Shown: positions 3,418-58,638 of the stretch, piece after piece
Layout of the letters: each line of letters begins with the position of its first letter
Numbering within the stretch: the stretch's first letter is position 1
Assembly (NCBI RefSeq): GCF_021130785.1
Contig: NC_060211.1
Coordinates: forward strand, 126,739,001 to 126,803,000
DNA: 64,000 nucleotides
DNA from: Homalodisca vitripennis
Lineage: Eukaryota > Arthropoda > Insecta > Hemiptera > Cicadellidae
Direction of reading: 5' to 3'
Translations under genes and position numbers: made by a program
Notes under the pieces: generated by a model
The model's input: the letters and a program-made list of their open reading frames with translations, nothing else
Database searches by the model: none
What the model was told of the DNA's origin: nothing

Positions 3418-3464
<47 letters not shown>

Positions 3465-8617: not shown

Positions 8618-9150
8618 TATATTTCTCAAACCTATCACCAATATTACTACTGAAGAGTGATCCAGATCCGCCAGGGGACACCCACCATGATGTGTTGTGA
8701 GAATGTTTCGCTGAGTAAGGAAAGCATATTTATTAAACCCATCACCAATATTTCTACTGAAGAGTGATCCAGATCCGCCAGGTGACACCCACCATGATGT
8801 ATTGTGAGAGAATGTTCCGCTGAGTAAGGAAAGCATATTTTTCAAGCCCATCACCAATATTTCTACTGAAGAGTGATCCAGATCCACCAGGGGACACCCA
8901 CCACTAGTTGTGAGAGAAAACGTTCTGCTGAGTAAGGAAAGCATATTTATTAAACCCATCACCAATATTTCTACTGAAGAGTGATCCAGATCCGCCAGGG
9001 GACACCCACCATGATGTGTTGTGAGAGAATGTTCCGCTGAGTAAGGAAAGCATATTTATTAAACCCATCACCAATATTTCTACTGAAGAGTGATCCAGAT
9101 CCACCAGGGGACACCCACCATGATGTGTTGTGAGAGAATGTTCCGCTGAC
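8618..9150. repeat. Minisatellite, about 5 copies of a 108-bp unit
   Basis: The unit contains CTGAAGAGTGATCCAGATCC, CACCCACCATGATGTGTTGT and GCTGAGTAAGGAAAGCATAT. Copies start near 8650, 8758, 8866, 8973 and 9082, with a few substitutions and one- to two-base indels between them. The last unit runs directly into a GC-rich segment (9150-9235). Open frames on the minus strand across this array are repeat artefacts. Confidence 0.9.
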
Positions 9151-9235
9151 CTACAAACCGCCGTTACTCGCCTCAGACCGCCTGCCGCGCCACCGCGTAC
9201 CTCTGCCCTCTGAGAACTCTCTGTCTCTACTACTG
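9150..9235 (+). promoter_or_regulatory. Candidate non-coding first exon (GC-rich) with splice donor
   Basis: A sharply GC-rich run (ACCGCCGTTACTCGCC, CCTGCCGCGCCACCGCG) in AT-rich surroundings ends in TACTACTG followed by GTAAGT, a strong donor consensus. It lies about 3.5 kb upstream of lipocalin gene B on the same strand and could be its 5' UTR exon. There is no direct evidence for the junction or for a TATA box. Confidence 0.3.
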
Positions 9236-12200: not shown

Positions 12201-12737
12201 TGTATTCAAATTTACTCTGTTGAATATTTATATTTCATTTAATGGCTGTTCTGGCATCCATCTTAATTCTAGTCCCATAAGAACAATACAATATAAAATC
12301 ACAAACACTCTTACGATATTATTTTACGTACGTAACGTTATGAGAAATGTCTCATTTTAAAGATATAAAATCAATACGCATCCAAACGCTGTTTTAGATG
12401 TTTCTATATTTTAATTAGTAGTCTCTTAAAAAACGCATTTTTTACACTAAAATATATATATACTTTAAAAGAAAAATTTAAAAGCATTTGGATGCATATT
12501 ATTTGCATTTTTAAAATGATAGCCTACATCAACCAGGATTGTACGCCAAAAAACATCCGCGTAAAGTTGTGTAAGGTCTCACATTGGTCTTGTAAGGTGA
12601 AATTCAAGTTCGTTTCACAAAATCTGATTCTTGAAGTAAATTTTAAAAAGAAACTCAAACCATTTTACTCTGTAAAACTCAGAAAACTACTCAATACAGT
12701 TGCTCAACAGTTGCTATTTGTTGTTACATTGTGGTTA
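9236..12737. other. Spacer upstream of lipocalin gene B
   Basis: Mostly AT-rich with no gene I can assign. A stretch at 10435-10575 ending GGCACACCCTGTGTATA resembles the edge of a degraded DNA transposon. At 11540-11690 the minus strand has a 42-codon frame starting M-V-G-A-I-T-S-F-L-F-L-L-A-A-G, which looks like a signal peptide but has no convincing donor or partner exon. A 22-24-bp duplication (CTTCAAAAATGTTTTATCTG) sits near 11907-11955. Confidence 0.4.
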
Positions 12738-14368
12738 ATGACACTACCTGATTCCTGTTGTCCCAGTCACATCATGCTGGTGCTAATCGCGGTCTTGTCG
12801 GGCACGATACACTTGGCTGCCGCCCAGGTGCCGTTCCTTGGACCCTGTCCACAGGTCACGACTGTAAAGGACTTCAACTTCACACGGGTAAGCGTATAAT
12901 CAGAGGTTACATCTCAGAAACATTCATGTCTCAATACTAAGTTTGTGCCAACATGTCTTGTTTACAAAGTGAGTTTACTTACTCTAACAATATCGTGCTG
13001 GTATGTATTTATTACATAATTTGTAATACTTACACTTTGAGATACTTAATTCATTATATCAAGGTGCCATATTGAATTAATTCTTGTGAATAACTGTGGT
13101 CAATGCATTTTAAACAATGAATTAAAAAAAAAACATATTTTTCTGCTGAACATTTTGGAAGAAAATGTGTGTTCATAATGTAGGCAATACCAAACTTAAC
13201 ATTAGTAATGACAAAACATTACAGATGGCTATCAAACAAACATCTCAGACTCTAGCGCGGAGAACTCTACTCAGCTGACCAGACTATGTTTGTCCGATTA
13301 TACATGTTCATGTTGCGTTGTATCTGGGCAAGTGGTTCGAGGCGGAGAGACACTTCTCGCTGATGGAGTTCGCCGGCAAGTGTGTGGTCGCAAACATCTC
13401 AGACTCTAGCGCGGAGAACTCTACTCAGCTGACCAGACTATGTTTGACCGATTATATATGTTCCTGTTGTGTAGTACCTGGGCAAGTGGTTCGAGGCGGA
13501 GAGATACTTCTCGCTGATGGAGTTCGCCGGCAAGTGTGTGGTCGCAAACATCTCAGACTCTAGCGCGGAGAACTCTACTCAGCTGACCAGACTATGTTTG
13601 ACCGATTATATATGTTCCTGTTGTGTAGTACCTGGGCAAGTGGTTCGAGGCGGAGAGATACTTCTCGCTGATGGAGTTCGCCGGCAAGTGTGTGGTCGCA
13701 AACATCTCAGACTCTAGCGCGGAGAACTCTACTCAGCTGACCAGACTATGTTTGACCGATTATATATGTTCCTGTTGTGTAGTACCTGGGCAAGTGGTTC
13801 GAGGCGGAGAGATACTTCTCGCTGATGGAGTTCGCCGGCAAGTGTGTGGTCGCAAACATCTCAGACTCTAGCGCGGAGAACTCCACTCAGTTGACAGTGG
13901 TCACGGACCAGACGAGCTGGCTGTAAGTTATGTTTAAAAAATACATGATACATACAACATACAATGATCTCTTTCATTCCTGGTACACTTTCGGTATACA
14001 TTTTCACAGTTATCAACATATATAACAAGCATATTTGGTTGTAAATTATTTATTTAGTTGTATCACGGAAATCTAAAAATATCGACTGATTCATGTTGAG
14101 TTTGTTCCGAGGAACGACGCGTTTGGGTCACTGTAAATAAGTATTAATTCAGCCCGCCGGTGTAACGTTGTTCTTTATCTATTACTGTACACTACTGAAA
14201 ACATATTCAAATGTTTACGGTAATGTTATTACGATTACATCACCTAGAAGAAAGGATTTAATACGGAGCTGTCAACTATACGTATGGAATTGAGGTTTAT
14301 TAATTAATATATTTGACGGTTTATTCGTTAAACACTGTTAAAACTAATATTTTTTACTTTTAAGTCGT

Positions 14369-14420
<52 letters not shown>

Positions 14421-17400
14421 TCTATAATAAACGTATAAATTAATTATTTACAAAAAGCTATTTGCGGTAGCAGTATGAATTATTTATGTAATATTATTTG
14501 TTTTGATACTTAAATCATTTGGTAACACTTAAAATTTTGGTTCAATATTGTTTGGATATTCTTTATCGACCACGATGGAGAAAATAAAGTTTAATTCGTC
14601 TAGACGAAAGTTAGCATACATGGTCGTTTCAACTAATTTGAAGTGAACTTGTCTCAAATAAATATGATGACTATTTGTTTTCTGTTTTGACAGAACTGAA
14701 ATACACTCATCGATGAGGGGACAACTGCGGCCTGTAGACCAGAGGAGTGACGTCTCCAAAATGTACATGCGATATCTTCCAAGTAAGTGTCTTACAAATG
14801 AATTATCTTCTAATCGGCAAATAAAAAAATTTTAAATTTTAAAATAAATACATTAAAATTTATGTCATTAATATTTCAAAGTCTTAAGAGAAAATATATA
14901 TTGGCATAAAAATAATAGGAAACTCATTATGTCATAGAGTAGCTTGTACTCGTAACTAAACTCATACTAAAATAATACTTTCAAAATTTTTATATCTCTA
15001 AGATACTAAGAAATTTGCTGAAAATTTTCAGTTCAAAATGGTATACAAAAAATATATGGTATCTTTCAAGTTATGCACGCTATCTAGAAAAAAACTACAG
15101 GAACAGTGGATATACACATATAACAGAGAAGTATTAAACATGTTATATTGGGTACAGTCTGGCAAAAAAACCCAAAAAATAAATTTAAATGTGGTCACTA
15201 CTTGAAGATTGAAATAAATTACATCAACTCCAAACAAAATATTTAGCATGAGATTGCTATCTACAAAGCACCGCACTAAGTTTATGCCACATACCCCTCA
15301 TGTAGATTGAGATCTATCTCTTTTATGTCAAAACTACAGCTCTAATTTCCTAACTTTTGAACACATATGTATTTGGAGACCTTTCATTCATCAAGGCCAT
15401 CCATTGAAGAAAATTCCAGTTGGCGAAGCCCAGCGTTAAAACATTCTAATTATTACTTTGACAATGATGTTATGACATTGAAGCACATCATCGCACTGTT
15501 GTTTTATATTCCTGCCGACAGATATGTATACTTATTCAGACACTAAATACTGCTGAAATTTTTTTTTTTAAATTATGTATTGTATCCAATTTTATATTTT
15601 AAATACGTAAGGCCATCGATTTTAATTATATTTAACTAATTTATTCTTTTAAAAATAAATAAATAAAAAGCCGTTCCTGAAACAGTAAAAAGATTTTTAT
15701 TAAGATAATACACTTTTTATATTGAACTAAATTCCTTCATTCACGTTTCAAAAAGTAATTCCTTCGAGCCGGATTTGAACCAGCGACCTATGGATATCAG
15801 CTTAAGTTTTCACTCTACAGTCCACCGCTCTACCAACTGAGCTATCGAAGGAGCTGAATGAGTATGAGTCATAGCTTACATACATGCTGATGCTGCGAAC
15901 ATTATATTATATTATATTTACAGTCACATCTTAAATAATATATACCAAATGTGAGCGAAAGTTAATGTTAATCATTTTTGTGGATAAGTAACGCTGATAA
16001 CTGTTAGTAAATTTCACACATTAAATTATTGTTCTCTATTTAGTAAGCGTAATCTATAAATTTTATTCTTTATTGATGTAAGATAGTAATAATAAAATGT
16101 ATATTATACCAGCAAAGAATCTGTTAATTTCTATTAATTTATAGCCTGGCTAGTATTATTTTTTAACTTAACACTAATTATGTCCACAAATTATTTCCAT
16201 CAAAATCAGTTTTCAAGCTCTACTTGTTTTTAGTTGAGCAAAGCAAAGACAGTATTGTATATGAGTACAGAGAAGAAATAAATCATGTTAAATTTGACAG
16301 TTTCTTTTTAGGCAAAAATAATAGGAAAATTGACTTTCACCACCAATTATTACTACGTTTTGCCTTAAATTTGATGTCCAAACTATTTAAACGTTGGTTC
16401 ATTAAAATTTAGATTCCTTTTTAATTTTTTTAATAATTTAAAAAGAAACAATGTAGTAAATAAGTTACATTTGTTCCATTAATAGTTGTATGTAATATAC
16501 TTTTCTATATTTTATACTTTATTATTAATATCATATTTTATATTATTACACAACAAAATACTTAACTCTAAACTTACTCTTAGAATCCTGTGCAATAAGC
16601 ATAGCAAAATATTATAATAAACTGAAACAGCTGGCTTTCGTTTTATTATCCTTTATTGAACATAATACTGGTAGAAAAAATATAAGGTATGGAAGAAAAT
16701 CGTACGATGTTGCAAAACTTATCTTTTTTGTGTATTTCTGTGTGTGTTGGGGGGGGAGGTTTCCATCCGTGGTCATTTATTGTGAGAAACTTCCTTATTA
16801 GTCTAAATTTCATTAAATTAGGCACACGTGTAAGTAGTTCATACATCACATTATTTTTATAAAGCTTTTGTATCCAATCATTTTTCCTTAAATGAGCCTA
16901 AAAGTAGTCAAATATTTGTAAATAAGGACCATAAAATCTATGTGTTACATCTAAAAATTACAGCTCAAAGCATAAAATTCAAAGTTACGTAAAAATGCAA
17001 TGTAAAGTAAATTACAGAATACAGTAATTACATTCTTTTTACTCCAAAATGAACACCTTCATTTTACCTAAATATTTCATTCATTTTTTTATTCACTGTA
17101 ATTGTTTAGAGATTTTTAAGAAACTTGTTATGAACCTGACAAGATGATGGACCGTGAAGCTGGCAGAGGCTATTCACTACTTGACATAGTGTTACACTTT
17201 CATCGTAACAGTGTGGGAATCAGGAATTGTTACTTGTTCAACGTTACAGGCCTCTTCTTCCTGCGAGGATATGAAAGGGTTTAATGTTAGTCTACATAAC
17301 ATGTATGTTACAGTGGATCTGACTGTAAACCACTGGGTTCTGGATACAGACTACGACAACTACGCAGTGGTGTTCTCCTGCGTGGATATCATCGGTTCTG

Positions 17401-18159
17401 TTCTCAGTACAAGTAAGTTAACTTTTCTTTCGTCTTCTCTGTTTCTAGAAATTTCGAAATTGGTAATATGTACAGATTAAAAAAATACTAATATTTTGTT
17501 AAAACCATATGTATTTTTTTTAGTTTTTACAGTTTTTGTATTATTGTTAATGATGAACTAGCATTTGGACTTCTTTATAATCTATATTACACTTCATTCC
17601 AAAATAGTATCTTTATTCTGTTTTGAATTAAATTGTGTTGTAATAATTCACCCACTTTAAATCTTCAAAAAGTCTATTTTCAACTTTTCAATTATAAAAT
17701 GTATTGTTCGAATGCCTTCACTCCTCGATAGGCAGAATTCATCCGCACCAGATATTACACGTATCCAAAACTGAAGGCGCACATGTTTGATGGAAATTGA
17801 TAATTCTTCTAAAAAATTCCCTTAAACATTTTCCAACACTACTGACAGTTTTACGATTAGCAGGCATTAATTCAAGAATACTTAATTGAACGGACGGTTT
17901 AGTGCGCCATCAGTGTTGGCAGAAATATATTCAAGAGTAAAACGCTCCAAAACCATGTTTTGTTGAAGGAAACGCATGGATCTTGACGAGGGCCCGAAAT
18001 CCAACGCTGGAGGTGATGGAGAAGGCGTACTCCGTCATAGACAAGAACAACATAAGCAGGGCGTACTTTATCAGGGTCGATCACTCGGACCGTAGTTGTC
18101 CGGAGTACGGCGGCACGGACGAGCAGCAGACTCCCGCACCAGCCACTTCGGCGGCGTGA
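12738..18159 (+). CDS. Lipocalin gene B, complete, five exons (ApoD/Lazarillo/bilin-binding-like)
   Basis: Exons by splice signals and phase: 12738-12887 (or from the in-frame Met at 12774), 13783-13922, 14694-14782, 17314-17412 and 17969-18159. Phases 0, 2, 1 and 1 join without a stop and give about 210 residues from Met12774, the usual lipocalin size. Exon 1 has a signal peptide (M-L-V-L-I-A-V-L-S-G...A-A-A-Q) followed by G-P-C-P. Exon 2 opens with Y-L-G-K-W-F-E-A-E-R, the G-x-W motif of the barrel's first strand. Exon 4 has W-V-L-D-T-D-Y-D-N-Y-A-V-V-F-S-C. Exon 5 has N-A-W-I-L-T-R-A-R-N-P and ends S-C-P-E plus a short tail. Four cysteines fit two disulfides, and N-F-T, N-I-S and N-S-T are glycosylation sequons. 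The last acceptor is an unusual GAAG. Met12774 is preferred because it gives a compact signal peptide. Confidence 0.9.
13232..13868 (+). repeat. Tandem duplication of the exon 2 acceptor region of lipocalin B (154-bp unit, about 4 copies)
   Basis: The unit runs from the 3' end of intron 1 (ATATGTTCCTGTTGTGTAG) through the first 100 or so bases of exon 2. Exon-start positions are 13321, 13475, 13629 and 13783, exactly 154 bases apart. The first copy has lost its AG (GTTG before the exon), the next two keep a good acceptor, and only the last is followed by the rest of exon 2 and a donor (13922/13923). Because 154 is not a multiple of three and the inner copies have no donor, choosing an upstream acceptor gives an early stop (at about 13717 or 13871). 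Confidence 0.93.
14371..14418. repeat. (TA)n microsatellite in intron 2 of lipocalin B
   Basis: About 24 TA units without interruption. Confidence 0.95.
15760..15851 (-). tRNA. tRNA-Tyr (GTA) with 19-nt intron, inside intron 3 of lipocalin B
   Basis: Read on the minus strand it has acceptor halves CCTTCGA/TCGAAGG, a D arm GCTC...GAGC, anticodon loop CTGTAGA (anticodon GTA) interrupted after position 37 by a 19-nt intron, and T arm GCTGG-TTCAAAT-CCGGC. The mature length is 73 plus CCA. The B box is GGTTCAAATCC. It is transcribed opposite to the host gene. Confidence 0.96.
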
Positions 18160-22020: not shown

Positions 22021-24048
22021 AAGTAACACCTCAGTCCACAACAATTTAAAGCAATAAAGTCATTAAAAAATAATACAGACATCATCATTGTACCTGCCGA
22101 TAAAGGGAACAAAATTGTTATTCAAAATTTAGAAGATTATATCAAAGAAGCAAAAAAGCAGTTGTCAGACCATGATACATATCAAACCTTAGATGAAGAC
22201 CCAACCGTTAAATTTAATGATAAAATCAAAGAATATTTGGAGGAAAATGGTTCAGAAAAAGATATATCTCCAAACAACATAGCATTGCTTTCACCAAAAA
22301 AAAACCTCGCACCCCCATTTTTTATACACTCCCCCAAATTCATAAGAGTATCCAAAAATTCCCCTGGGAGACGCATTGTATCCAGTTACTGGTCACCGAC
22401 TGAAAAAATATAGTCTTTTTGTTGATGATCAGTTGTAACAAATTCATTGCATTTCATTGATCAACTTTCCTCTATCAACCAACCTGATGACTCTATTTTA
22501 GTAACAGTGGATGTCAATTTCCTATACACTAACATTCCACATGAAGATGGAGTAAAAGCAGCAGAATATTTTTTAAATTCACGACCAAACAATACTAAAC
22601 CTACAACACAATTTATTATTACGTCAATCAGAATGATACTTACTATGAACAATTATAAATTCAATAATCAAAATTATCTACAAACTTCTGGTACTGCAAT
22701 GGGAACTAGAATGGCCCCATCTTACGCAAGTCTATTTATAGGTTTATTTGAAAAAGAATTTTTAGATACACAACGCTTAATACCTTTGAAATGGCTACGT
22801 TATATAGATGATATTTTGTTCATCTGGGATCATGGAGTCGATTTATTAACACAATTTCTTAATTATCACAAGAATTCTCTTCTTTAAAATTTTCTTGGAT
22901 ATATTCAAAATCTAAATTTACGTTTCTAGATTTAAATGTTTTTATTGAATCTGGATTTCTCCAAACTAAATTACACATAAAAGAGACTAACACTATGAAT
23001 TACCTACATTTCTCCAGCTGTCACCCAAGGTACGTCAAAAAATCCATTCCAAAAAGTTTGTCAGTAACAGCAGAGAAACTATGCAGCAGCCAATCTGATT
23101 TCTTAAACTACAGTGAAAAATTGGGTTTAAAACCTTCTAAGATTTGGATTACCCCGAAAAAATTGTCAAAAATCAAATTAATAAACCATAATGTTAAAAA
23201 ATTCATATGATTATTCAAAAGAACCTAAATTTATTACTCGATTCTTCGCTGGTCTACACAAAATTAATTCTATTATAAAAATTGGATTTAATTTACTTCA
23301 AAGTTCCCCTGACACTTCAAATTTTAGTTCAAAAGCACCAAGAGTAATTTTTAGAAGACCTCCAAATTTTAAAAACAAGCTTGTTAACACACTAGTTCTA
23401 AAATCTATCAACTATAAAAGAAATGGATGCGATCCATGTAAAAAACCACGATGTGGAACATGTAAAATTATGAGTTCTTCAAGAGAATTCAATAGTAGTA
23501 ATACTGGAATGACCTATCCTATAATTGGCAACATTGACTGTAATTCAAAAAATCTATTATACTAAATTAATTCTAAATTTTGCTCCAAACAATATGTTGG
23601 CCAAACATCGAACCATTTAAGAATTCGTATGACAGGGCATAAGTTTGACATATTCCATAAAGATGAAGATAAACCATTGGCAAGACATTGTCTAGAACAT
23701 GAACAAGACAAAATTGAGGAGTATTTTAAATTAAAAGGAATACAACAACTACCACCATGCTCTGATGAAAACTACAACAGATTAAAATTAAAGAAAAAAT
23801 CCATTTGGTCTAAATTTAAGATAACGTTTTAAATAATTTTAATAGATTCAAAATTTGTCATAAATTACAAGTTGTATTCCATCCTTTATAAAAATCAACT
23901 GTTCCAACAAGATTAAATTAAGATTAAAAACGTGAAAAATGTCACGTCAGCTGGACTTTATCAAATGTTATGCACTGTGTTTACATTTATTTTTTCTTAA
24001 TTCTTGTTTACGTGTTATAGTTTTGCACTAATTTTTATTTCAAACTTC

Positions 24049-32174: not shown

Positions 32175-35100
32175 ATGATTAATGGATACATGAGCATACG
32201 TATTATGTCAGCTTTAAGCTTGTTTTTCCTGCAAGTTCCACTTACATTTCCTCAGAAAATGTCAATGGGTTACTGCCCGATTGTATCGCGTGTGGCCGAC
32301 TTTGATTTAGAGAAGGTACTCTTATTGCCTAATTAGTTTGTACCAAAAGTATGTTTATGGCTAAATATATATGTCGAGTATATTATATTCCGTGAAAAGA
32401 AATACTCAATTTGTGAATAACGTTTTGGGTACTACGATTCTAAAAATGTTTACTCAAATTTGGCATGTATAGTTTGCTGTCTAATAGTATTTTTAATTTG
32501 GCAACACTATTAAATTATATAAGTAATTTCAGTACAAAAATATACGTTCAAAATGGCTCAAACTGTTTTGAATATAGTTCCTTTATAATCCCATTATGAG
32601 TTCAACAAACATTTTCAAAACGTGTATATACAATTTATTGAATAATTGTACATTTTTCCAATGTATCATCGAAGCCTCGAGCATACAACTGGTGATAGCC
32701 ACTGTATGGAATATGTAATTATTATGAAATTTACATATTGATCTATTCCTAAATTTGTAAGTATATCTATTAAACGTATAGGTACTTTTAATTTTTTGTT
32801 AATTTTATAAAATCCCGTTAGTAGCTTAATTGAAAATAATTCACTTCATTTCTCTATAAATATTTTTTAATATTGATAAAAGATTGAATTTTAATTTAGA
32901 TTACATGCGGATTCAAGACAGTACGGCGATATTACAGGGTTTAAATTGAAAAGTGATGATAAAATACGGTGTATAATTTATAAACATTTACATAAAACCT
33001 CTTTTTAACTTTTATGAGGTGTTAACACAAAAACCAACACTATTTGTACAAAAAACAAATGAGCTCATCCTTTATATTAAAGTATCATTTATCGAGTGAC
33101 AATAATATCATTAATAATATCCAGATAAAACTTCCTGTTTTAAAAATTACATTTATTTTTTTATTTAGTGCAAAGGTGTAGTTGAAGCCTTAAAGCCTAA
33201 ACGATGCACCCATCAAACTACACTTTCTGGTAATATTTGTTATTCTGGAAATGGCAAACTTCATAGAATGTAGGTGGAACCAGTTTTTATCATAGTTACC
33301 ATTTAATTGTTTTATTTTGTCACTCGCATTCTATTTTACATTTGGCACTATAGTCCGTATTACAGAATCATTGTGTATGAATAAGTTTTACGCCATTTTG
33401 CGCCAATATTTCAATAAATTAGTAGATTTAACCTCATATCCCTAGTCTCAGGGCCAAAGTGTTGTTATTGTCGCTTACAGATGGTAAGACGTCAACTTAA
33501 ATATTAAATTTCAAACAATTTCCAAAAATTAATTACTTCTAACACTGGTTCCGCCCCACAGTTTATGGGTGTCTGGTATCAACAAGCCACCGTGAGCTCG
33601 GTCCTGAAAGATGACGTCACTTGCACCAAGTACACTTATAAACCCGGTAAACACGGGTCTTTCATCATCGATTCCAAAATGACAAGTAAGTAAGTTTTGT
33701 TAAAAGTTTCTCAATCTGTTTTGAAATTAATACTGTTTTTACCTTACACATGGTTGTAATGTGTACTAAAAATTAGACGCATCTTGATTTTGAACAGTTT
33801 TTTATGAAATTTCATTAGCTGTCTAAAATAAAATATAACTGTTCTATATATGGCCTATGTTGATAAGTCAGACCTTTGAATTTCTAGGTAATCCCCATCT
33901 CTATGGTGATTGTATTACATAATTATTTTTTTTGTAAAGATATTTCTGTTCTTTAAAACATATATAGTTTAAATCAATTTTAATTTTATAGTAGTTATCT
34001 CATTGTTATGAATTAAATTTTATATGCTCAGTATTTTTCCATTATTTTCACAGTTTACTCGATATAAAATGTGTTTAATAGTTTTCTGTGTGTATAGCCT
34101 ATATATAATTCGATATTTCCTTTTTCGTCGCAGTGGCAAATGTTTCAGGTGGCAACAGATTTTAGCATTGGGTGCAATATCTTCTAACAGACTGTTACAA
34201 AACTAAATACTTAACTGTACTTTCTACCCTTTTATACCTTTTCTTCGTAGCTTCTAGACTTTCTTAATAGCTTAATATCATCTTTTTATATTAAATATCT
34301 TTTTTAAAATTGGCCATAAAAATAAACGCCAAAATAAATTACCACTTTAACACACATCTACTCGTACTTCATTTAATTAAGCCAATTATTTGTCTGCACA
34401 GAAGCGGTGAACCACTAGAAATCCATGGAGTAGCCAAACCCAAGAGACACAATCACGAGATCGAAGTCGGTCACTTCTCTGTGATCAGCAGAGATGGTGA
34501 GTATTTGAGATCTATGATCAAGCTTTCATACAGAAGCGATGAACTACTAGAAATACATGGAGTAGCCAAACCCAAGAGACACAATCACGAGATCGAAGCT
34601 GGTCACTTCTCTGTGATCAGCAGAGATGGTGAGTATTTGAGATCTATGATCAAGCTTTCATACAGAAGCGGTGAACTACTAGAAATACATGGAGTAGCCA
34701 AACCCAAGAGACACAATCACGAGATCGAAGCTGGTCACTTCTCTGTGATCAGCAGAGATGGTGAGTATTTGAGATCTATGATCAAGCTTTCATACAGAAG
34801 CGGTGAACTACTAGAAATACATGGAGTAGCCAAACCCAAGAGACACAATCACGAGATCGAAGCTGGTCACTTCTCTGTGATCAGCAGAGATGGTGAGTAT
34901 TTGAGATCTATGATCAAGCTTTCATACAGAAGCGGTGAACTACTAGAAATACATGGAGTAGCCAAACCCAAGAGACACAATCACGAGATCGAAGCTGGTC
35001 ACTTCTCTGTGATCAGCAGAGATGGTGAGTATTTGAGATCTATGATCAAGCTTTCATACAGAAGCGGTGAACTACTAGAAATACATGGAGTAGCCAAACC

Positions 35101-36831
35101 CAAGAGACACAATCACGAGATCGAAGCTGGTCACTTCTCTGTGATCAGCAGAGATGGTGAGTATTTGAGATCTATGATCAAGCTTTCATATTGTTGAATA
35201 AATTCAATTATACTTAGCACATACGTTGAATCAATAGTGTTGAATTGGTTAGAGAATAAAACGAATAGATATTGTAAATTACCAAATAAGGAAGAAAACT
35301 AATAAAGTACTATGCCAAAATGATGTACGAGTATAATGTGATGTAAAGATGTAAAGCACTCAGACGACTACAATGTGCTGGCCACGGACTACGACAGCTA
35401 CGCTCTCATATACAGCTGTTGGGAGCTCCGCAGTCTACTCGTATACAAGAGCCGTGAGTAGTTTATTATCATTATTATTACAGTGTATACAAATGTTAAA
35501 GATATTATGATTTGTTGATTCTCATCAATTTCTTGTAAGACTTGGTTGTGCAGAAGTATTTCCTTATATTCTTAAAAATAAATAGTACGACTATGTCATG
35601 ACAAATTGTTACAGAAACCGAAATCACTCATACCGAAGTACAGCTCATGTGTACAAAAGTACTTGTGTACAGAAATACTTTTCATGCTGATAAAAATACT
35701 ATTTCTATATATAAGTACTTTAGTAGATCATATCTCTAAATGATAAAATAATAAACTATTTCGTGTAATTTAAGTTTTTTATTGTAATAAGAGTTTTAAT
35801 TGAGATCTACATTTAAAGCAAAGAGATATTACGAAGTTAAAACATTTGTATTTATCCGTACTACCGTAAGAAAACAAATCTCCCAAAACTTTATTTGCTT
35901 AAAACATATTAAAACAAAATTAAACACTTACAACAAAAGCCGTTTTTCGAGATGAACTTTCAATGCCAATCAACTCCTTAAAAAACAATGTACAGAGTAC
36001 AGGTTTGCCTGTGGAAATCTTGTAAATTACGCACTCATACACAACATTATTATGAAATATCCAAGACATAAATCATCCTTGAAGAATTGTGTATAATTTA
36101 TTTATTTTTGGCACACTTCGAGATTGAGAACTAACTGCGTGAATGGAGAAGATAGCTTTTTTTTATAAATTCTCCTGATGCCTACAACTTTTATGCGATT
36201 ACATAAACTTCAACTTTTAAGGCAGATCCCATGGTTGTTATCCAATATACCGAATCAGCCGAATAAAACTCATAATCTCATTAAGGAAACTACGAATCAG
36301 CTATCACTGACTGCTCAAGGACAAAATGAATCCTAAAACACGAATTTAGCCAACTCACAACAAGACTTCTTTTGGTCCTTAATGGTCCCTTTAGTGACCG
36401 TAATAGTAGGAACACTTCTGAATGTGATTTTATATATCAGATTATCGCTAACGTAAACATTTCTTTCGCAAGACATGAACTCCGCAACACGGAGTTTAAG
36501 TATTTGTTTATATTTTTGTAGCCGATAATTCAGCTATCGGCAGTTACCTATTACAATTCCAAACCTGGGTTTGGAGGATTTATGTTCTTTTTAAATCAAT
36601 TTATGAATGGTTGTCCAGCAAGATGAATTGTATCAAATATTTTTTCCAGAATCACTGGAGATTCTAAGCAGGGAACGGATGTTTAACACGTCAGTGATCG
36701 TGAGCGCTTTCCCCGAAGTGCGCCGGCAGAGGCTGGAGGAGGTGTATGGAAGGATACACACTGTCGACCAGCTCAACTGTACCGATGTCCAGGAGGATCT
36801 CTCCAGCTTCTTCCCTCTGGAACATGTCTGA
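32175..36831 (+). CDS. Lipocalin gene C, complete, five exon positions with exon 3 repeated
   Basis: Exons: 32175-32315, 33562-33689, 34402-34496 (first of six copies), 35364-35453 and 36650-36831. Taking one exon 3 copy, phases 0, 2, 1 and 1 join cleanly into about 211 residues. Exon 1 gives a signal peptide and M-G-Y-C-P-I-V-S-R-V-A-D-F-D-L-E-K. Exon 2 begins F-M-G-V-W-Y-Q-Q-A, the lipocalin G-x-W motif. Exon 3 has G-E-P-L-E-I-H-G-V-A-K-P-K. Exon 4 has V-L-A-T-D-Y-D-S-Y-A-L-I-Y-S-C. Exon 5 has L-E-I-L-S-R-E-R and V-D-Q-L-N-C and ends in TGA. The four cysteines match gene B. Two donors stand four bases apart at exon 2 (after 33685 or 33689), and only the second keeps the frame. Exon 1 is only 47 codons, and the start could also be the Met at 32190. 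Role inferred from the family: secreted hydrophobic-ligand carrier. Confidence 0.88.
34402..35197 (+). repeat. Six tandem copies of lipocalin C exon 3 (132-bp unit: 95-nt exon plus 37-nt intron)
   Basis: Exon starts are 34402, 34534, 34666, 34798, 34930 and 35062. Copies 2-6 have the acceptor CTTTCATACAG, copy 1 has TTTGTCTGCACAG, and every copy ends GAGATG before GTGAGT. Copies 3-6 are nearly or fully identical, while copies 1 and 2 differ by a few codons (P-L versus L-L, E-V versus E-A, S-D versus S-G). The unit is a multiple of three, so the unspliced array reads as one open frame of about 44 residues per copy. The 37-nt spacers are shorter than introns normally spliced in insects. Confidence 0.94.
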
Positions 36832-47340: not shown

Positions 47341-48395
47341 ACCATAGTCTGTCCTTATTTAGGTACTAGAATTCTGTAAAATGTTTCAGTATGGTTTCTT
47401 ACCATTTTTACCATTTCATGCTTATTTAGAAAAATAGTTCCTTATAGAATAAAATACATTAGGCAGTCAACTAGCTGATTAGTCAATGTCTCACTAGGGC
47501 ATCTCGTTCGTTTGAAGACGTTTTCCATACTAAGTTTCTCGTTATATAAATGCTGTAATTATTCGCTCAGGCAAAATAGTTAGACGTTTCCATGGGTTAT
47601 ATCTAATTTAATATGATACTTTTTCAAACCATTCAATTACCTCTGTTTGATCATAATGTTTTTGTGACTTGGAGACAAGTTGCATCGATTACGTTTGGTA
47701 TTACAAACAACTGCCTCACTCAGTGCTTAAAAATCAACTTCTCTTATGTAGATAAACAAAACATCTTCGAACTGTCTAAATACCATTTCAATTGTTTTCA
47801 GTTTTTTATTAAAACATAAAATGCTGACCATTGAGTATCAATAGGAAAAACAGGCAATCAAATAAACAATTTCCTTTATTCAAATGTTATATGAGCTCTC
47901 TATTTTTCATCTTCAGAAATTGTACACCCCTTTGAAAACTTTATAGGTTATTTACAAAATAAAAAGAAATTGTATTTTTCAGATGTGGTAATTTTAAAAA
48001 TCTTTGACACAGAATTGAAACTGTTTCTGTCTCTAAATAATATTAGAATGGACAACGCTAGTTTTTTATATCTAAACAATAAAATATAATAAAAAATTTT
48101 CTGTACAAATAATAAAAAATACATCGAAAAAACCAACAAGCGTATTGGTAAATTAATATTTTCAAAATGATATCTTTACCATAATTGTACTACTAAAAGT
48201 AAGGCGAAAAGTGTTTGAAATTTAAAATTGTTCTTATATGTCAAAAATTAAAATGACTCTCAAGTGCAGCTACTTGACAAAGTGTTATGCTGAAAAAACC
48301 GGTGATGCTGGTTGCTGATGATATTGGATATCGGATTTTGAATTTATACTTTAGATATATTTGGAAACCATCTTTCGACGGATCACATTTTATTA
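47341..48395. other. Spacer upstream of the repeat-protein gene
   Basis: AT-rich, with no feature supported until the TATA box at 48396. Confidence 0.5.
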
Positions 48396-48401
48396 TATAA
48401 A
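48396..48401 (+). promoter_or_regulatory. Candidate TATA box of the decapeptide-repeat gene
   Basis: TATAAA in the context TTATTATATAAAGTG, 77 bases upstream of the preferred start codon at 48478. This would put transcription start near 48425 and exclude the upstream in-frame ATGs at 48361 and 48421. Confidence 0.4.
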
Positions 48402-48477
48402 GTGTATAAGCATCCTTAAAATGCGCAAAAACTCTTTAAAATGCATTAGTTCAACTGGGTTTGTCGTGGTTGTAGAA

Positions 48478-51400
48478 ATGCGGCGAACTCGCTTAGTGAT
48501 CCTGCCCGGTGCAAAGTGTCTGACGCGGCTATGCTGCCTGCTGTTGTACCTCGCGTGTCCCAACATCTGCGCGTTGGGCCGCGAGCAGCCGCAGTGCATC
48601 ATTCCTGACCTCAACACCCCGCTGCTAGACAACATCGTACTGTAAGTTTCCTGAAGGTACTTTGTATTAGATATATCAACGAAGTGTGTATAGATATAGA
48701 GAGACTCTCAATTAAAACTATATGTTTGATTTCTTTCAGAGAAAATGATGACCCAGGAGAAAACAGAATATTCAGGACGACCGGATGTGATCTAACTTAC
48801 GCGGACCTGCTTATGACTAGGAACTCTACGTGGAAAGGAAGTGAAAGCAATGCATTTGTTTGTCTATCAAAAAACAAACTACCTCTGAAACATCACACTA
48901 CTGATACAATCGAAATTTTGAGTGTAGCAAACCCAAAACAGATTGATCGGAAGAACACATTGGTGAATTCCTCAATATTACGAAAAACAAGAATGCTGTC
49001 CAGTGGACGGTACGAAACAATGGAACAGCCGGCTGTTGACTCCAGAAAACGCCAGGATCTGCAATCTGAGCAACTAAGACGATCATCTAAATCAGAGCAA
49101 CGTCTGCCACAACTTACAGAGCGACTCCAAGCAATCCGAGTGGAGAATCGTGGTACCCAATCGCCCCAAGTTAGACGACATGAAACACAACTCCTAGCAG
49201 AACTTCGGGGAGACCGATCACATTCACTTGAACATCGTGACGTGCGAAGACTCATAGCACAGCGCCGAGACACACGATCACTCTCTTCTGGACGAATCTA
49301 TGCGCGAACGCTCTTGGCGGAACATCGAGACACACGACTATCTTCACCAGAACGCCGTGAAGATCGAACATACTTGACAGAACGTCGAGACATTGCTGAG
49401 CGGCGTGAAGCACGATCCCTCGCAAAACAACGACATGAAGTACGAATTTCACCAGCAGAGTGGCGTGAAGCACGCCCAATTTCAGTAGAACGGCGTGAAT
49501 CACGGTTACTTGAAGCAGAACGACGTGAAGTACAAGTGTCTCAAGCTGAACGACGTGATGTACGAGTTTCTCCATCTGAGCGGCGTGATACAAGGTCACT
49601 TGTATTCGAACGACGTGAAGGACGAATTTCTCCTGCTAAACGACGGGAAGTACGAGTTACTCCAGATGAGCGGCGTGAAGCACGATCAATCGCAGAAAAA
49701 CACCGTGAATTAAGACTGTCTCCATCTGAACGACTTGTAGTACGAATGTCTCCAGCTGAACGGCGAGAAGCACAGATACTCGCAGTTGAACAACATCAAG
49801 TACAAATTTCTCCAGCTGAACGACGTGAAGCACGGTCTCTCACAGAACAAAAACGAATGGTTCCAACTGAACGACGTGACGTACGAATGGCTCCAGCTGA
49901 ACGACGTGAAGCACGGTCACTCGCAGAACAACGTGAGTTACGAATGGCTCCTGCTAAACGACGTGAATCTCAATTGTCTCAAGCTGAACGGCGTGAAACA
50001 CGGTCCCTCTCAGAAGAACGACGAGAGTTACGAATGGCTCCAGCTGAACGACGTGAATCTCAATTGTCTCGAACTGGACGGCGTGAAACACGATCCCTCT
50101 CAGAAGAACGACGAGAGTTACGAATGGCTCCAGCTGAACGATATGAAGTCCGAGTTACTCCAGCAGAGCGGCGTGAAAAACGTTCCCTCTCAGAAGAACG
50201 ACGAGAGTTACGAATGGCTCCAGCTGAACGACGTGAAGTCAGAATTACTTCAGCTAAATGGCGTGAAGCACGATCAGTCACTGAAGAACGACGTGACTTA
50301 CGACTGGCTCCAGCTGAACGACGTGAATCTCAATTGTCTCAAACTGAGCGGCGTGAAACACGTTTCCTCTCGGAAGAACGACTTCATGTTCGTCTGTCTC
50401 CATCTGAACGTCGTGAAATACGAGTTACTCCAGTTGAACGCCGTGAAGCACGGTCACTCACAGAACAACGTGAGTTACGAATGGCTCCTGCTGAACGACG
50501 TGAATCTCAATTATCTCGAACTGAGCGGCGTGAAACACGGTCCCTCTCAGAAGAAAGACGAGAGTTACGAATGACTCCAGCTGAACGACATGAAGTCCGA
50601 GTTACTCCAGCAGAGCGACGTGAAAGACGTTCCCTCTCAGAAGAACGACGAGAGTTACGAATGGCTCCAGCTGAACGACTTGAATCTCAATTGTCTCGAA
50701 CTGAGCGGCGTGAAACACGGTCCCTCTCAGAAGAACGACTTCATGTTCGTATGTCTCCATCTGATCGTCGTGAAATACGAGTTACTCCAGTTGAACGCCG
50801 TGAAGCACGGTCACTCGCAGAACAACGTGAGTTACGAATGGCTCCTGCTGAACGACGTGAATCTCAATTATCTCGAACTGAGCGGCGTGAAACACGGTCC
50901 CTCTCAGAAGAAAGACGAGAGTTACGAATGACTCCAGCTGAACGACATGAAGTCCGAGTTACTCCAGCAGAGCGACGTAAAAGACGTTCCCTCTCAGAAG
51001 AACGACGAGAGTTACGAATGGCTCCAGCTGAACGACTTGAATCTCAATTGTCTCGAACTGAGCGGCATGAAATACGTTCCCTCTCAGAAGAACGACGTCA
51101 AGTTCATGTGTCTCCAGCTGAACGAAGTGAAATACGAGTTACTCCAGTTGAACGCCGTGAAGCACGGTCACTCGCAGAACAACGTGAGTTACGAATGGCT
51201 CCAGCTGAACGACGTGAATCTCAATTGTCTCGAACTGAGCGGCGTGAAACACGGTCCCTCTCAGAAGAACGACGTCAAGTTCGTATGTCTCCATCTGAAC
51301 GAAGTGAAATACGAGTTACTCCAGTTGAACGCCGTGAAGCACGGTCACTCGCAGAACAACGTGAGTTACGAATGGCTCCAGCTGAACGACGTGAATCTCA

Positions 51401-54400
51401 ATTGTCTCGAACTGAGCGGCGTGAAACACGGTCCCTCTCAGAAGAACGACGTCAAGTTCGTATGTCTCTATCTGAACGAAGTGAAATACGAGTTACTCCA
51501 GTTGAACGCCGTGAAGCACGGTCACTCGCAGAACAACGTGAGTTACGAATGGCTCCAGCTGAACGACGTGAATCTCAATTGTCTCGAACTGAGCGGCGTG
51601 AAACACGGTCCCTCTCAGAAGAACGACTTCATGTTCATATGTCTCCATCTGAACGTCGTGAAATACGAGTTACTCCAGTTGAACGCCGTGAAGCACGGTC
51701 ACTCGTAGAACAACGTGAGTTACGAATGGCTCCTGCTGAACGACGTGAATCTCGATTATCTCGAACTGAGCGGCGTGAAACACGGTCCCTCTCAGAAGAA
51801 CGACGAGAGTTACGAAAGACTCCAGCTGAACGACGTGAATCTCAATTGTCTCGAACTGAGCGGCGTGAAACACGGTCCCTCTCAGAAGAACGACTTCATG
51901 TTCGTATGTCTCCATCTGAACGTCGTGAAATACGAGTTACTCCAGTTGAACGCCGTGAAGTACGGTCACTCATAGAACAACGTGAGTTACGAATGGCTCC
52001 TGCTGATCGACGTGAATCTCGATTATCTCGAACTGAGCGGCGTGAAACACGGTCACTCGCAGAACATCGTGAGTTACGAATGGCTCCAGCTGAACGACGT
52101 GAATCTCAATTGTCTCAAACTGAGCGGCGTGAAACACGGTTCCTCTCAGAAGAACGACTTCATGTTCGTCTGTCTCCATCTGAACGTCGTGAAATACGAG
52201 TTACTCCAGTTGAACGCCGTGAAGTACGGTCACTCATAGAACAACGTGAGTTACGAATGGCTCCTGCTGAACGACGTGAATCTCGATTATCTCGAACTGA
52301 GCGGCGTGAAACACGGTCCCTCTCAGAAGAAAGACGAGAGTTACGAATGACTCCAGCTGAACGACATGAAGCCCGAGTTACTCCAGCAGAGCGACGTGAA
52401 AGACGTTCCCTCTCAGAAGAACGACGAGAGTTACGAATGGCTCCAGCTGAACGACGTGAATCTCAATTGTCTCGAACTGAGCGGCGTGAAACACGTTCCT
52501 CTCAGAAGAACGACTTCATGTTCGTATGTCTCCATCTGAACGTCGTGAAATACGAGTTACTCCAGTTGAACGCCGTGAAGCACGGTCACTCGCAGAACAA
52601 CGTGAGTTACGAATGGCTCCAGCTGAACGACGTGAATCTCAATTGTCTCGAACTGAGCGGCGTGAAACACGGTCCCTCTCAGAAGAAAGACGAGAGTTAC
52701 GAATGACTCCAGCTGAACGACATGAAGCCCGAGTTACTCCAGCAGAGCGGCGTGAAAGACGTTCCCTCTCAGAAGAACGACGAGAGTTACGAATGGCTCC
52801 AGCTGAACGACGTGAATCTCAATTGTCTCGAACTGAGCGGCGTGAAACACGTTCGCTCTCAGAAGAAAGACGTCAAGTTCATTTGTCTCCAGCTGAACGC
52901 CGTGAAATACGAGTTATTCCAGTTGAACGCCGTGAAGCACGGTCACTCGCAGAACAACGTGAGTTACGAATGGCTCCAGCTGAACGACGTGAATCTCAAT
53001 TGTCTCGAACTGAGCGGCGTGAAACACGGTTCCCTCTCAGAAGAAACGACGTCAAGTTCATATGTCTCCAACTGAACGCCGTGAAATACGAGTTACTCCA
53101 GTTGAACGCCGTGAAGCACGGTCACTCGCAGAACAACGTCAGTTACGAATGGCTCCAGCTGAACGACGTGAAGCACAATTGTCTCGAGCTGAGCGGCGTG
53201 AAACACGTTCCCCTTCAGAAGAACGACGTCAAGTTCGTATGTCTCCAGCTGAACGTCGTGAAACACGATCACTCACAGAAGAACGTGAGTTACGATTGGC
53301 TGCAGCTGAACGACGTGAATCTCAATTGTCTCGAACTGAGCGGCGTGAAACACGGTCCCTCTCAGAAGAAACGACGAGAGTTACGAATGTCTCCAGCTGA
53401 ACGTCGTGAAATCCGAGTTACTCCAGCAGAACGACGTGAAGCACGGTCACTCTCAGAAGAAAGACGTGAGTTACGAATGGCTCCTGCTGAACGACGTGAA
53501 TCTCGATTATCTCGAACTGAGCGGCGTGAAACACGGTCCCTCTCAGAAGAACGACGAGAGTTACGAATGGCTCCAGCTGAACGACGTGAATCTCAATTGT
53601 CTCGAACTGAGCGGCGTGAAACACGTTCCCTCTCAGAAGAACGACTTCATGTTCGTATGTCTCCATCTGATCGTCGTGAAATACGAGTTACTCCAGTTGA
53701 ACGCCGTGAAGCACGGTCACTTGCAGAACAACGTGAATTACGAATGGCTCCTGCTGAACGACGTGAAGCACAATTGTCTCGAGCTGAGCGGCGTGAAACA
53801 CGTTCCCCTTCAGAAGAACGACGTCAAGTTCGTATGTCTCCAGCTGAACGTCGTGAAACACGATCACTCACAGAAGAACGTGAGTTACGAATGGCTCCAG
53901 CTGAACGACGTGAAGCACAATTGTCTCGAGCTGAGCGGCGTGAAACACGGTTCCCCTTCAGAAGAACGACGTCAAGTTCGTATGTCTCCAGCTGAACGTC
54001 GTGAAACACGATCACTCACAGAAGAACAACGTGAGTTACGAATGGCTGCAGCTGAACGACGTGAATCTCAATTGTCTCGAACTGAGCGGCGTGAAACACG
54101 GTCCCTCTCAGAAGAACGACTTCATGTTCATATGTCTCCATCTGAACGTCGTGAAATACGAGTTACTCCAGTTGAACGCCGTGAAGCACTGTCACTCGTA
54201 GAACAACGTGAGTTACGAATGGCTCCTGCTGAACGACGTGAAGCACAATTGTCTCGAGCTGAGCGGCGTGAAACACGTTCCCCTTCAGAAGAACGACGTC
54301 AAGTTCGTATGTCTCCAGCTGAACGTCGTGAAACACGATCAGTCACAGAAGAACAACGTGCGTTACGAATGGTTCAAGCGGAACTACGTGAAGCTCAATT

Positions 54401-57400
54401 GTCTCGAACTGTGCGGCGAGAAACACGTTCCCTCCCAGAAGAACGACGTCAAATTCGTATGTCTCTATCTGAACGACGTGAAATACGAGTTACTGCAGTT
54501 GAACGCCGTGAAGCACGGTCACTCGCAGAACAACGTGAGTTACGAATGGCTCCATCTGAACGACGTGATGTCCGAGTTACTCCAGCTGAGCAGCGTGAGA
54601 CACGATCAGTCACAGAAGAACGAAGTGAATTACGATTGACTCCAGCTGCACAACGTGAAGTCCGAGTTACTCCAGCTGCACAACGTGAAGCTCAATTGTC
54701 TCGAACTGAGCGGCGTGAAAGACGGTCCCTCTCAGAGGAACGACGAGAGTTACGAATGGCTCCAGCTGAACGACGTGAAGCTCAATTGTCTCGAGCTGAG
54801 CGGCGTGAAACACGTTCTCTCTCGGAAGAACGACGTCAAGTTCGTATGTCTCCATCTGAACGACGGGAAGTACGAGTTACTCAAGCTGAGCGCCGTGAAG
54901 CACGAATTTCTTTGTCAGAACATCGTTACAGTCTAATAGAACGTCGTGTAACCCGATCTTCTTTGGCACACTTACTTGGATCAGAACAAAAAGAACTATC
55001 TTCTCTATTAGAACGTAGTCATGACCGATTTTCCGTTGCAGGACGCCATGAGGACCGTATTATACCGGTAACTCGACGTGCGTTATCCTCAGGACGACAT
55101 TATGCCAGTTCTGCTATTTCTAAACTACATGACACCCGACTATCCTCAATGGAACATCGAAATCGGCGATTTACCGTTGCAGAACACCGTATCTTATCGT
55201 CTCTGGAGTCTAAGAATTCGTTAATTTCGGACCTAAAGTATCAATCTCTGGTCTCCTATATCTTGGATTCACAAGTTATTAAAAGCTCATATGAAAACAT
55301 TTTGCACAATAACTGGCTTCAGGTTGTTACAGCAATCCTGTACGTTCTGGCAATTTCCTCGATGCAGTGGAACATTTACGAGGACGACTTGAAAAAACAA
55401 AAATCAGTAAGTGTCTAAAGTATATATTTGTAGATACAATAGTAAACTTTACGTTTTTTCTTATTTTTTTATTCGTTGTGTTCTTAAATCTGGCATATCC
55501 ATGATTTCACTAGTAGTTTTAAACATGAAAATAGTCCATCCAGTAATATCAGAACAATTCGTATCAGTTTAGTATCAAGAAACAGATCTAGTTGACCAGA
55601 ATTTATAGCTTGAAAAAATGTATTCAAGGAGAATTTCTTGCAAACTACGGTTCTTTTAAACCAGCTGATAACTTCAAGAACTGTTTATGGTTTTCAATGT
55701 ACAGTGACACGAACATCTATTTGTAATTTTATTGTAATGTGGCAGGTAACACCGCATAACAATGCTATTTATAAAAATATTTATTGTTTTACACAATTAT
55801 CTATATACATAAAACAAAGTTAGTGGGATTAGCTACACAATTTATAACTCAAGAATGGTTGTGCCGATTATAATGATCTCTGATTTGTTGGATTCCTCCC
55901 CGCCCCTAATAGCAAAATATATATTAAATATTGTAAAAGTTCACTAAACAAATTAAAAAACAAAAAAGAAAAACAGGTCAATAAGAAAAGAATATTTTTA
56001 TAACCGTTTAAATTGAAAGAGCCTGTTAATTGTAATCAACTGTTCTGTGTAAACGTCCTTTTATGACAGCACAACCACATGTTTAACGAAATTAACTATT
56101 TTCAATTTGTTTACATTTATAGTCTTAAATGTAATTTGACAATAGAAAACCATTAAACTTCGAATCCGGCATAGCTAAGACGCTGAGGCTTAAATGAGAA
56201 AAAAATCATACAGTAAGTAAGCTTAATAATTACAACACTTTAATTTTTTTGCAATCACCGTTGAGCACATAGTAAGAAAATATCCACATAAGAAAATTAC
56301 TTAAATTTTACTAAATATATACTTTAAACTTAAATATTGTTTATTACGTATGCAGTGCTTGGTCAGTACTGTAGTGCAGATGGCTAAGACAAAGTAACTA
56401 ACATTTACTTTAAATTTAAAGACATATAAAACCCATTTTAATTTAATTTTGGCAGAAATAGGCTTCTTAGACCTTTGTATATTGATTGGGGAAAAAGGCA
56501 AAATCAATATTGTCGCAGGAAATACAATTCACTCGAACCAGAAGTCATTCACGTGCAAAGCCTATGAAATTGCTTGCGAAGCCTCTTGTAACAGCTATTA
56601 TTGAGTAAATCTTAAATGTAATCAATAAATTTAATGTCCTTAATAGATTACAATATTTACATATTTTTACTCAATTGTTCTTAATAATGATAATCTTTAA
56701 TGTTTAGACGTTGGTTTATAACACTCTAAAAATCCAATGCCATATAAAATAAAGAAATGTTAATAGTAGAACTTTATTAATAATTCTATCTGTTACAGAA
56801 CAATTCTGGAACTGAAACCTTCAAATGGTAAGATTTTGTTGCCTTAATTTTTAACACACCTTAATAATGCTCAGAACTAAATACTAATCTACAATCTGAC
56901 CTCTATAAAAATATTGGCACTGCAAATTTTAAATTTGTATTTAAATATTGTGCAGACATCTTTCATATAATTACCTATACTTTTGTAACAAAATTAAGGG
57001 TGTTAGTTTTAGAATGCGATGATATAAACATGCGCTTGTGTGCACCACTCACTACACACTTAGCAAATAAGCTCTCTCCGTAGATGGGAAAAGATTTATA
57101 TCTCACTATGCTACTAAATACTAAATGTTTGCGGCGTTATCCAGTTCTCTAGACTCATTAGTTCTTTATGCTTTCAAGTTCATTAGACAAGCTAGAACAT
57201 ACAGTTGTCAGGGAAAGGACCTAGGAGACAGAGATGAAACCATGAGATTGTCGTTGAGATAGTTGGGTGGACTCAATGAGATGCCTTTACTTCTTTAGAA
57301 CATGAAAGCACTTCTTGATTGCTGTTTCAAATGAGAGAGTTTAAAATGAAAATGAAATAAGAGTTGCTTGGTATGGACTAAACCAGTTCCTCCTTACATT

Positions 57401-58638
57401 TTGGCGAGTTACGCTAACTTGATTAGTCGCTATTATAAAGATGATCGGATGACGATTGTTTCCTCTTTACGCTCCTCTTAAATTTGTCAATATATCTTTT
57501 TCCACAATCTACAGACGGAGGAAGATTGTGAAGGTGATTGTCTCGAGTGATGATAAGTCTCAAGTGGTTGTGCTTAGTTTATTCGATGGTAAACAGCTAG
57601 CAGCATGTCAATGTGTCTCTCACACAATCGATATAACAGCCGTCTTTGTCTGATTTTTCCAAAACCTATGTTGGATAGCGAGATTGTTAGAGGCCATGGA
57701 TGTTCAAGAACGAAATCGTACTTATAGAAGTGTAATCGAAGTTTTCTCGGTCTAGTCTTTCTGGGTCAAGTTGTCCTGAGAACTCAAAATAGTGTGGTTT
57801 TTGGCAGGTGACATTCTTGCAAAGAGAAATAAAGAGGTACAGTTTAAAATGCTGCATCCCAAGAATGATAAAAGAAGTTCCTGTATCATCTCATATCATT
57901 TTTGTGTCAGTCAGTGATCGACTGTCTTAAGGTGGTGCAATCGATTTTGGGTTAAGTCAAATTTTTTAAATATAATAGTCATAATCCTTCAAGGTATCCT
58001 TCCTGAAGACAGAAAAAGAACAAACACTTTTGTGGGTCGCTTTACGAGGAATTATAGACATTTGAGGTAGTCATTTTGGGTGTTTTATAACCAGGCCCAA
58101 TGGAAAACGTCTAATGATAAGAATTTCAAATTTTCACAGTAAGTATGTGAAATATGATCGGAGGGATTGAAATATTTTTTATTTTGAAAAACATGAGTTA
58201 ATGTTCTAATACGTTTAAAATGTTACGGAAAAAATATTAATTTTATATATTTTGGAATTGAAAATATGTTAATTCCTCTGGAAGAATGGTATCTGAAATT
58301 TGAAGTTTTTAAATTCTAAAAATCGTATTCATATGGAATCTGTGTAGATTCTTAAAAAGATATCGCACGCCTTCGGATCACTCGAGATCACTCTTGGATA
58401 CGATCCTTTTTGTTGATTTTGTTGATCCTGATTTATTGCTGTTCCTCTCACGGCCTTCACTTATCAATGTAACTTAGCTGTCTCCGTGAATATGGAAACA
58501 GCTCTAGCCAGATTCTATATACGTGTTTGGTATAGTTGGTTATTAAATTATATTGTAACAAATAATCATTTATTTCTGTGCAGGACTACAAGACTGGCTG
58601 GCTGTGTCTCTCGTGCCCTCTACACAACAAGTAACTAA
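48478..58638 (+). CDS. Giant decapeptide-repeat secretory-pathway protein, four exons, function unknown
   Basis: Not a family I recognise. Exons by splice signals and phase: 48478-48641, 48740-55406, 56799-56827 (a 29-nt micro-exon) and 58584-58638. The phases join without a stop and the product is about 2,300 residues. Exon 1 encodes a basic start and a hydrophobic run (L-C-C-L-L-L-Y-L-A-C) ending near I-C-A-L-G, a likely signal peptide. Exon 2 opens with about 150 unique residues including a few cysteines. It then has the ten-residue repeat (A/S)-E-R-R-(E/D)-x-R-x-x-P, and a unique end with a hydrophobic stretch W-L-Q-V-V-T-A-I-L-Y-V-L-A-I and an acidic patch E-D-D-L-K-K. The last exons give F-K-W-T-T-R-L-A-G-C-V and a stop. 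Single-base indels near 52497, 53030, 53042, 53369 and 53951 shift the frame, but the net change is zero. Alternative: a true pseudogene. Confidence 0.7.
49380..54910 (+). repeat. Coding 30-bp tandem repeat array (decapeptide), with higher-order units
   Basis: The basic unit is 30 bp. In the main frame it reads A-E-R-R-E-x-R-x-x-P with alternating partners such as R-R-E-T-R-S-L-S-E-E, R-E-L-R-M-A-P and R-E-S-Q-L-S-R-T. The left part (to about 49900) is divergent. The middle and right parts are homogenised into longer blocks of several decamers that recur almost unchanged, for example around 51100-51700. All three plus frames are open over long stretches because of the repeat's codon make-up. 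The main frame is chosen because it joins the unique N- and C-terminal parts. Confidence 0.93.

Follow-up and report, generated by a model that had tools for sequence, protein, structure and literature searches.

The window, by which we mean the whole 64,000-nucleotide stretch of Homalodisca vitripennis DNA that was analysed, contains on its forward strand a candidate gene dominated by a very long tandem array of charged decapeptides, referred to here as the ERRE array (Table 1). If the TATA-like box serves as a promoter element, transcription would begin near 48424, and the start codon at 48478 would be favoured over the in-frame ATG at 48421. The splice signals of the model are good as judged by eye, with GTAAGT donors at 48642 and 55407 and acceptors ending at 48739 and 58583. 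Three C-termini are possible, according to whether the micro-exon is used, is skipped, or exon 2 is read on to the stop at 55416. A micro-exon had been claimed in the first-pass annotation of this DNA; candidate splice signals for it are present at 56799-56827, but its use is unproven and it provides one of these three endings. Aphid bicycle-type micro-exon proteins are encoded by many small internal exons, whereas here a single exon of 6667 nt dominates, with one possible micro-exon of 29 nt.

Table 1. Features of the candidate ERRE gene (window positions).
Feature	Position	Strand	Remarks
TATA-like box TATATAAAG	48394..48402	+	Spotted by eye; putative promoter element
Exon 1	48478..48641	+	Start codon at 48478, putative signal peptide, predicted first luminal cysteine (residue 40)
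98-nt intron, GTAAGT...TTTCTTTCAG	48642..48739	+	Splice signals only
Exon 2, 6667 nt	48740..55406	+	N-terminal part, decapeptide array, C-terminal hydrophobic segment
ERRE array, about 180 units, core E-R-R-E-x-R	49221..54950	+	Outer limits approximate
Stretch with four frame-breaking places	52488..53960	+	The four places share one repeat motif
Hydrophobic 19-mer, putative transmembrane anchor	55299..55355	+	From composite residue 2236; hydropathy only
Stop codon for exon 2 without onward splicing	55416..55418	+	
Possible micro-exon, 29 nt	56799..56827	+	Splice signals only
Possible last exon	58584..58638	+	Stop 58632-58634 without the micro-exon, 58636-58638 with it

TRF reported 181.7 copies of a 30-bp (10-codon) unit at 49514-54905, and a relaxed motif recovered 177 units, 99 of which are distinct as DNA. 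Among 141 units recovered with a strict motif, arginine occupies position 2 in 125 and position 3 in 129, glutamate occupies position 4 in 135, and arginine occupies position 6 in 114; the motif fixed position 1 and restricted positions 2-4 (position 4 to E or D), so only the count at position 6 is unbiased. Many paired arginines downstream of a putative signal peptide would suit a precursor cleaved at each R-R pair into many short, neuropeptide-like products of very high copy number. We regard such a precursor as very improbable, given that the glutamates flanking the pairs are also kept (at position 4 as above, with positions 1 and 4 restricted by the motif), that the consensus has no amidation glycine before the pair, that the products would be heterogeneous, and that a C-terminal hydrophobic segment is unusual for precursors of this kind.

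Higher-order repeats of 59 and 119 codons are superimposed on the decapeptide unit. The middle of the array is homogenised, with 16 of 18 sampled 120-bp segments (49941 to 54021) being 0.93-1.00 identical to another copy and the remaining two showing identities of 0.80 and 0.82, while the edges of the array are diverged. A homogenised middle with diverged edges is the usual mark of unequal crossing-over. The N- and C-terminal parts of the protein align with each other, from residue 124 to about residue 2210, at 29% identity (composition correction off). The array had earlier been described as flanked by unique sequence; this holds for the outer ends, but the unique part is shorter than claimed, as degenerate units begin at about residue 124 and continue to about residue 2210.

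The array of about 180 charged ten-residue repeats is thus present as first described, but the 6.7-kb exon said to carry it is not one open frame as assembled, there being four phase changes within it. From 48741 to about 52.49 kb, some 3.75 kb that include the N-terminal part, the ERRE phase meets no stop. It then shifts four times before the first phase is restored at about 53.95 kb; read straight through, that first phase meets a stop at 52704. All four breaks lie in a recurring motif, of which 27 of 31 copies are of in-frame length and four are not (a further regex match, the 32nd, over-ran at 53459 and was left out of this count). Three of the four break copies carry both alternatives of sites at which other copies have one, and the fourth is without one base in a run. 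The presence of both alternatives looks like a consensus that has mixed copies or haplotypes. One published H. vitripennis assembly, not necessarily the one from which this window is taken, combined Nanopore data from three individuals with Illumina data from a single one; heterozygosity was 1.16-1.68% among the values shown (PMC8496328). We consider it likelier, though it is not proven, that the four breaks arose when repeat copies were mixed during assembly than that the gene has decayed. Real loss of the frame is possible, and the four breaks count against reading the locus as a working gene.

The E-R-R-E-x-R core is constrained at the codon level. In the ERRE frame pN/pS was 0.64 for 11 of the 13 higher-order blocks (two were left out) and 0.67 for the 141 units; the remaining two forward frames gave 1.01-1.39. 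When the 99 distinct units were compared with their consensus, the core codons showed 142 synonymous and 94 non-synonymous differences (142 of 236, a fraction of 0.602). The null fraction was 0.399 (sd 0.022), and the largest of 1000 shuffled values was 0.470. These units were chosen by a motif that contains the core, a bias in favour of the core test. The synonymous test became much weaker when all ten codons were used: the ERRE frame gave 0.346 vs a null of 0.318 (sd 0.010), the largest of 500 shuffled values was 0.352, and the ERRE frame did not stand out, one antisense frame being higher at 0.364. The core test is therefore the stronger of the two, yet the choice of motif favours it. A non-coding satellite or mobile repeat was rejected on the synonymous fraction of the core codons, the all-codon test on this point being weak.

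No relatives were detected in the searches made. Neither the N-terminal piece (281 aa) nor the C-terminal one (183 aa) matched a Pfam family at E<=1; NCBIfam, a prokaryote library, gave nothing for the three pieces searched; and among PDB sequences there was no match at 0.01 for P0001 and none for the C-terminal part. A Pfam match of P0001 to Cas6_N (36.1 bits, cut-off 27) was rejected, as no stretch passes alone and the score sums over the repeats, and seven PDB matches of the N-terminal part of exon 2 (E 0.87-0.90) were set aside as being at chance level. The protein collection includes H. vitripennis proteins as well as those of a second leafhopper, Macrosteles quadrilineatus, and was searched over lengths of 166-526 and 726-2311 residues. 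Within these lengths the N-terminal region had no match at E<=0.1 among 2048 candidates, and the array had none at E<=1e-10 among the 7988 candidates sharing most words with it. A single query combining both gene ends with a lipocalin control gave 12 matches at E<=10 among 419 candidates; ten of these carry lipocalin Pfam domains and the other two, P0012 and P0013, match the lipocalin tail, so the control worked. Viral contigs scanned with a slice of the array and the N-terminal part of exon 2 yielded zero relatives, and no description of such a protein was found in the titles and abstracts returned by literature searches.

The ends of the gene accordingly match no known family in Pfam, NCBIfam, PDB sequences or the protein collection in the lengths covered, which agrees with the earlier view of the protein as undescribed. 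To our knowledge this combination of repeat and charge pattern has not been met before, while fast-evolving giant repeat proteins of structural appearance are a known kind. An annotated protein for the locus was not found in the covered lengths, though same-species lipocalins were, and this counts against the reading of the locus that we prefer. The gene may be silent, its annotation may have been missed, or the protein may have a length other than the 166-526 and 726-2311 residues covered. Together with the four frame breaks, the lack of any protein record in the lengths searched would fit a decaying or never-expressed gene, that is, a coding minisatellite whose frame has been lost and which retains traces of past constraint. 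We consider this a real but lesser possibility, because the breaks affect just one motif (in 4 of its 31 copies), all but one of them look like assembly mixing as described above, and the core codons are constrained.

Read through the breaks as a composite, the product has 2287 residues and a net charge of +155 (R+K minus E+D). By hydropathy, its most hydrophobic 19-mer is residues 15-33 (1.74) and the second is residues 2236-2254 (1.49). The former is the highest peak in the protein and follows the start codon at 48478, which makes the previously proposed signal peptide plausible. The C-terminal hydrophobic segment, also proposed earlier, is found as the second-ranked 19-mer but is of borderline hydrophobicity, a value that counts against membrane anchoring in our preferred reading. 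The N-terminal part has cysteines at residues 40 (exon 1), 71 and 96 (exon 2) and N-glycosylation sequons at 83 and 131. Cysteine is absent from the array, whose 1860 residues include 11 lysines and which contains 76 [S/T/A]-P-x-E motifs. By analogy only with the giant charged repeat proteins of insect testis, such as mst101 of Drosophila hydei, the product might instead stay inside the cell as a structural protein, of sperm for instance, if its N-terminal hydrophobic stretch is not a signal peptide. This seems unlikely to us, as the two hydrophobic segments, the N-terminal sequons and the cysteines would suit the secretory pathway, as far as hydropathy and motifs can indicate.

The spacing of charges in the array is highly ordered. 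Over residues 201-2060, pairs of opposite charge greatly outnumber like pairs at i,i+2 (481 to 18), i,i+5 (325 to 19) and i,i+8 (482 to 20), and the reverse is seen at i,i+3 (43 to 319) and i,i+4 (69 to 173). Overall, opposite charges are in excess at separations of 1, 2, 5 and 8 and like charges at 3, 4, 6 and 7, far outside 200 shuffles, in which the corresponding difference was -13 (sd 20) at i,i+3 and -11 (sd 23) at i,i+4. A single alpha-helix (SAH) was rejected on this basis, since like-charged pairs at i,i+3 and i,i+4 are the reverse of the SAH rule. Hydrophobic power was 4.51 at a period of 3.33 (shuffled 1.74), 2.79 at 3.5 (1.78) and 1.23 at 3.67 (1.71). A canonical coiled coil was rejected too, as the heptad period of 3.5 is above chance without dominating, the hendecad period of 3.67 is below the shuffled value, and the peak in the helix range lies at 3.33. 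The hydrophobic moment exceeded that of shuffled sequences at 100 degrees (0.411 vs 0.350) and 108 degrees (0.445 vs 0.349) and fell below it at strand angles of 160-180 degrees, a pattern more in keeping with helix than with strand. Structure modelling of the array was uninformative (mean pLDDT 49.6). For the C-terminal part, one of five models, made from a single sequence, showed one helix over residues 55-170 of 172 with a mean pLDDT of 76.4, the other four scoring 33-42.

These data also bear on whether the array forms a rod, which could be a coiled coil or a single alpha-helix and might follow an uncommon 10-residue periodicity; a rod would be compatible with our preferred reading. The E/R-rich composition is in line with a rod, as are the modelled helices (with the confidences just given), the hydrophobic power above shuffled at 3.33 and 3.5, and the raised moment at 100-108 degrees. 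Against it are the mostly like charge pairs at i+3 and i+4, a top helix-range period that is neither 3.5 nor 3.67, and the 76 [S/T/A]-P-x-E motifs, which should break a continuous helix, and on balance we think a rod quite unlikely.

Several known systems can be set beside the ERRE protein. Trichohyalin and involucrin, proteins of the vertebrate cornified envelope, form structural coats with repeat arrays that are rich in arginine and glutamate or have ten-residue units, and the ERRE array is alike in its repeats. It differs from trichohyalin in having no S100-type head (its 281-residue N-terminal piece matched zero Pfam families at E<=1) and from involucrin in that the involucrin models of Pfam were unmatched by the three ERRE pieces. 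It differs from both in having few lysines (11 of 1860 residues), and so few donors for transglutaminase cross-links, and in its putative signal peptide and anchor. SAH proteins share long arrays dominated by E and R, but the charge spacing of the ERRE array is reversed. The mst101 proteins of D. hydei are giant charged tandem-repeat proteins of the sperm tail, and the likeness to these, as giant charged insect repeat proteins, is one of general description; repeat length and composition differ, and the ERRE protein has a putative signal peptide. Brochosomins and other leafhopper brochosome proteins (PMC10607721) are comparable by description, as lineage-restricted secreted structural proteins. 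Brochosomins are small.

We tentatively favour a genuine coding gene of H. vitripennis, or of a very near relative, for a strongly basic protein of ~2290 residues and ~270 kDa, putatively secreted or anchored and with a structural role through lateral assembly. Our best reading is that of an orphan, lineage-restricted structural protein, either secreted or of type I membrane topology. The array, the constraint on its core, the charge spacing and the absence of relatives from the searches made are observed, and secretion, anchoring, assembly and role are inferred. The putative signal peptide would direct the chain into the secretory pathway. In order, the chain would comprise a small N-terminal region, ~180 charged decapeptides, a hydrophobic segment that may tether it to a membrane, and a short tail. 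Were each unit to form a helix, helical-wheel geometry would place an acidic face opposite a basic face. Such opposed faces would form salt bridges between neighbouring chains and not within one helix, and the chains could associate side by side, like a zip, to build a coat, gel or fibre on a cell surface or within secreted material. Unequal crossing-over would lengthen the array and homogenise its middle while selection keeps the E-R-R-E-x-R core. The protein might be a fibre, a coat, or a component of saliva or egg, as had been suggested for it before; no data here choose among them. It appears doubtful at present that the locus represents a new class of sharpshooter structural protein. Such a protein would be a charge-zipper polymer, secreted or tethered to a membrane, whose chains adhere side by side through inter-chain salt bridges between ~180 copies of a palindromic E-R-R-E decapeptide, and unequal crossing-over would tune its length.

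If expressed, this would be a giant orphan structural protein in an economically important insect, and its charge pattern, which inverts the one seen in known single helices rich in E and R, would make it a test case for charged-repeat assembly. The locus may also exemplify genes that escape annotation where an assembly mixes near-identical repeat copies.

Upstream in the window there is a cluster of apolipoprotein D-like lipocalin genes (196-18156). The tail of P0006 (residues 118-279, 84%, one gapped match) lies at 196-690, and P0002, an apolipoprotein D-like protein of H. vitripennis, extends from 12774 to 18156. Five stretches of P0002 are present at 100%, namely residues 1-38, 39-85 and 149-210, and duplicated copies supply 39-76 two further times; the remaining matches of P0002 (43-97%) represent a further copy, exon edges or paralogues. 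The identical stretches place the window in H. vitripennis or a species very close to it, in line with the insect origin assumed in the first-pass annotation. A tandem repeat at 13237-13895 (154-bp unit, 4.3 copies, 98%) holds the second exon of P0002, with a donor, as judged by eye, in the last copy only. A weak lipocalin-like start lies near 32265 (E 0.29). At 34398-35190 a 132-bp unit is repeated 6.0 times (99%) and is open in one frame, its copies appearing by eye as exon-like segments of ~96 nt with acceptor and donor signals, ~36 nt apart. The resemblance of this repeat to part of a lipocalin is by eye only. None of its six Pfam matches is a lipocalin family and no stretch passes alone; the repeat is either a real exon multiplication or an assembly artefact.

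Six Rfam tRNA matches of 92 bp occur between 15760 and 43561, five at 61 bits and one at 58.8, of which ARAGORN reported two, without a clear anticodon. Retroelement fragments, which from their motif style may be Penelope-like in origin, are found at 22027-23565, where the ORF at 22429-22887 matches Pfam RVT_1 (E 2.9e-07). A further tandem repeat, of a 109-bp unit in 5.0 copies (90%), is located at 8605-9149.
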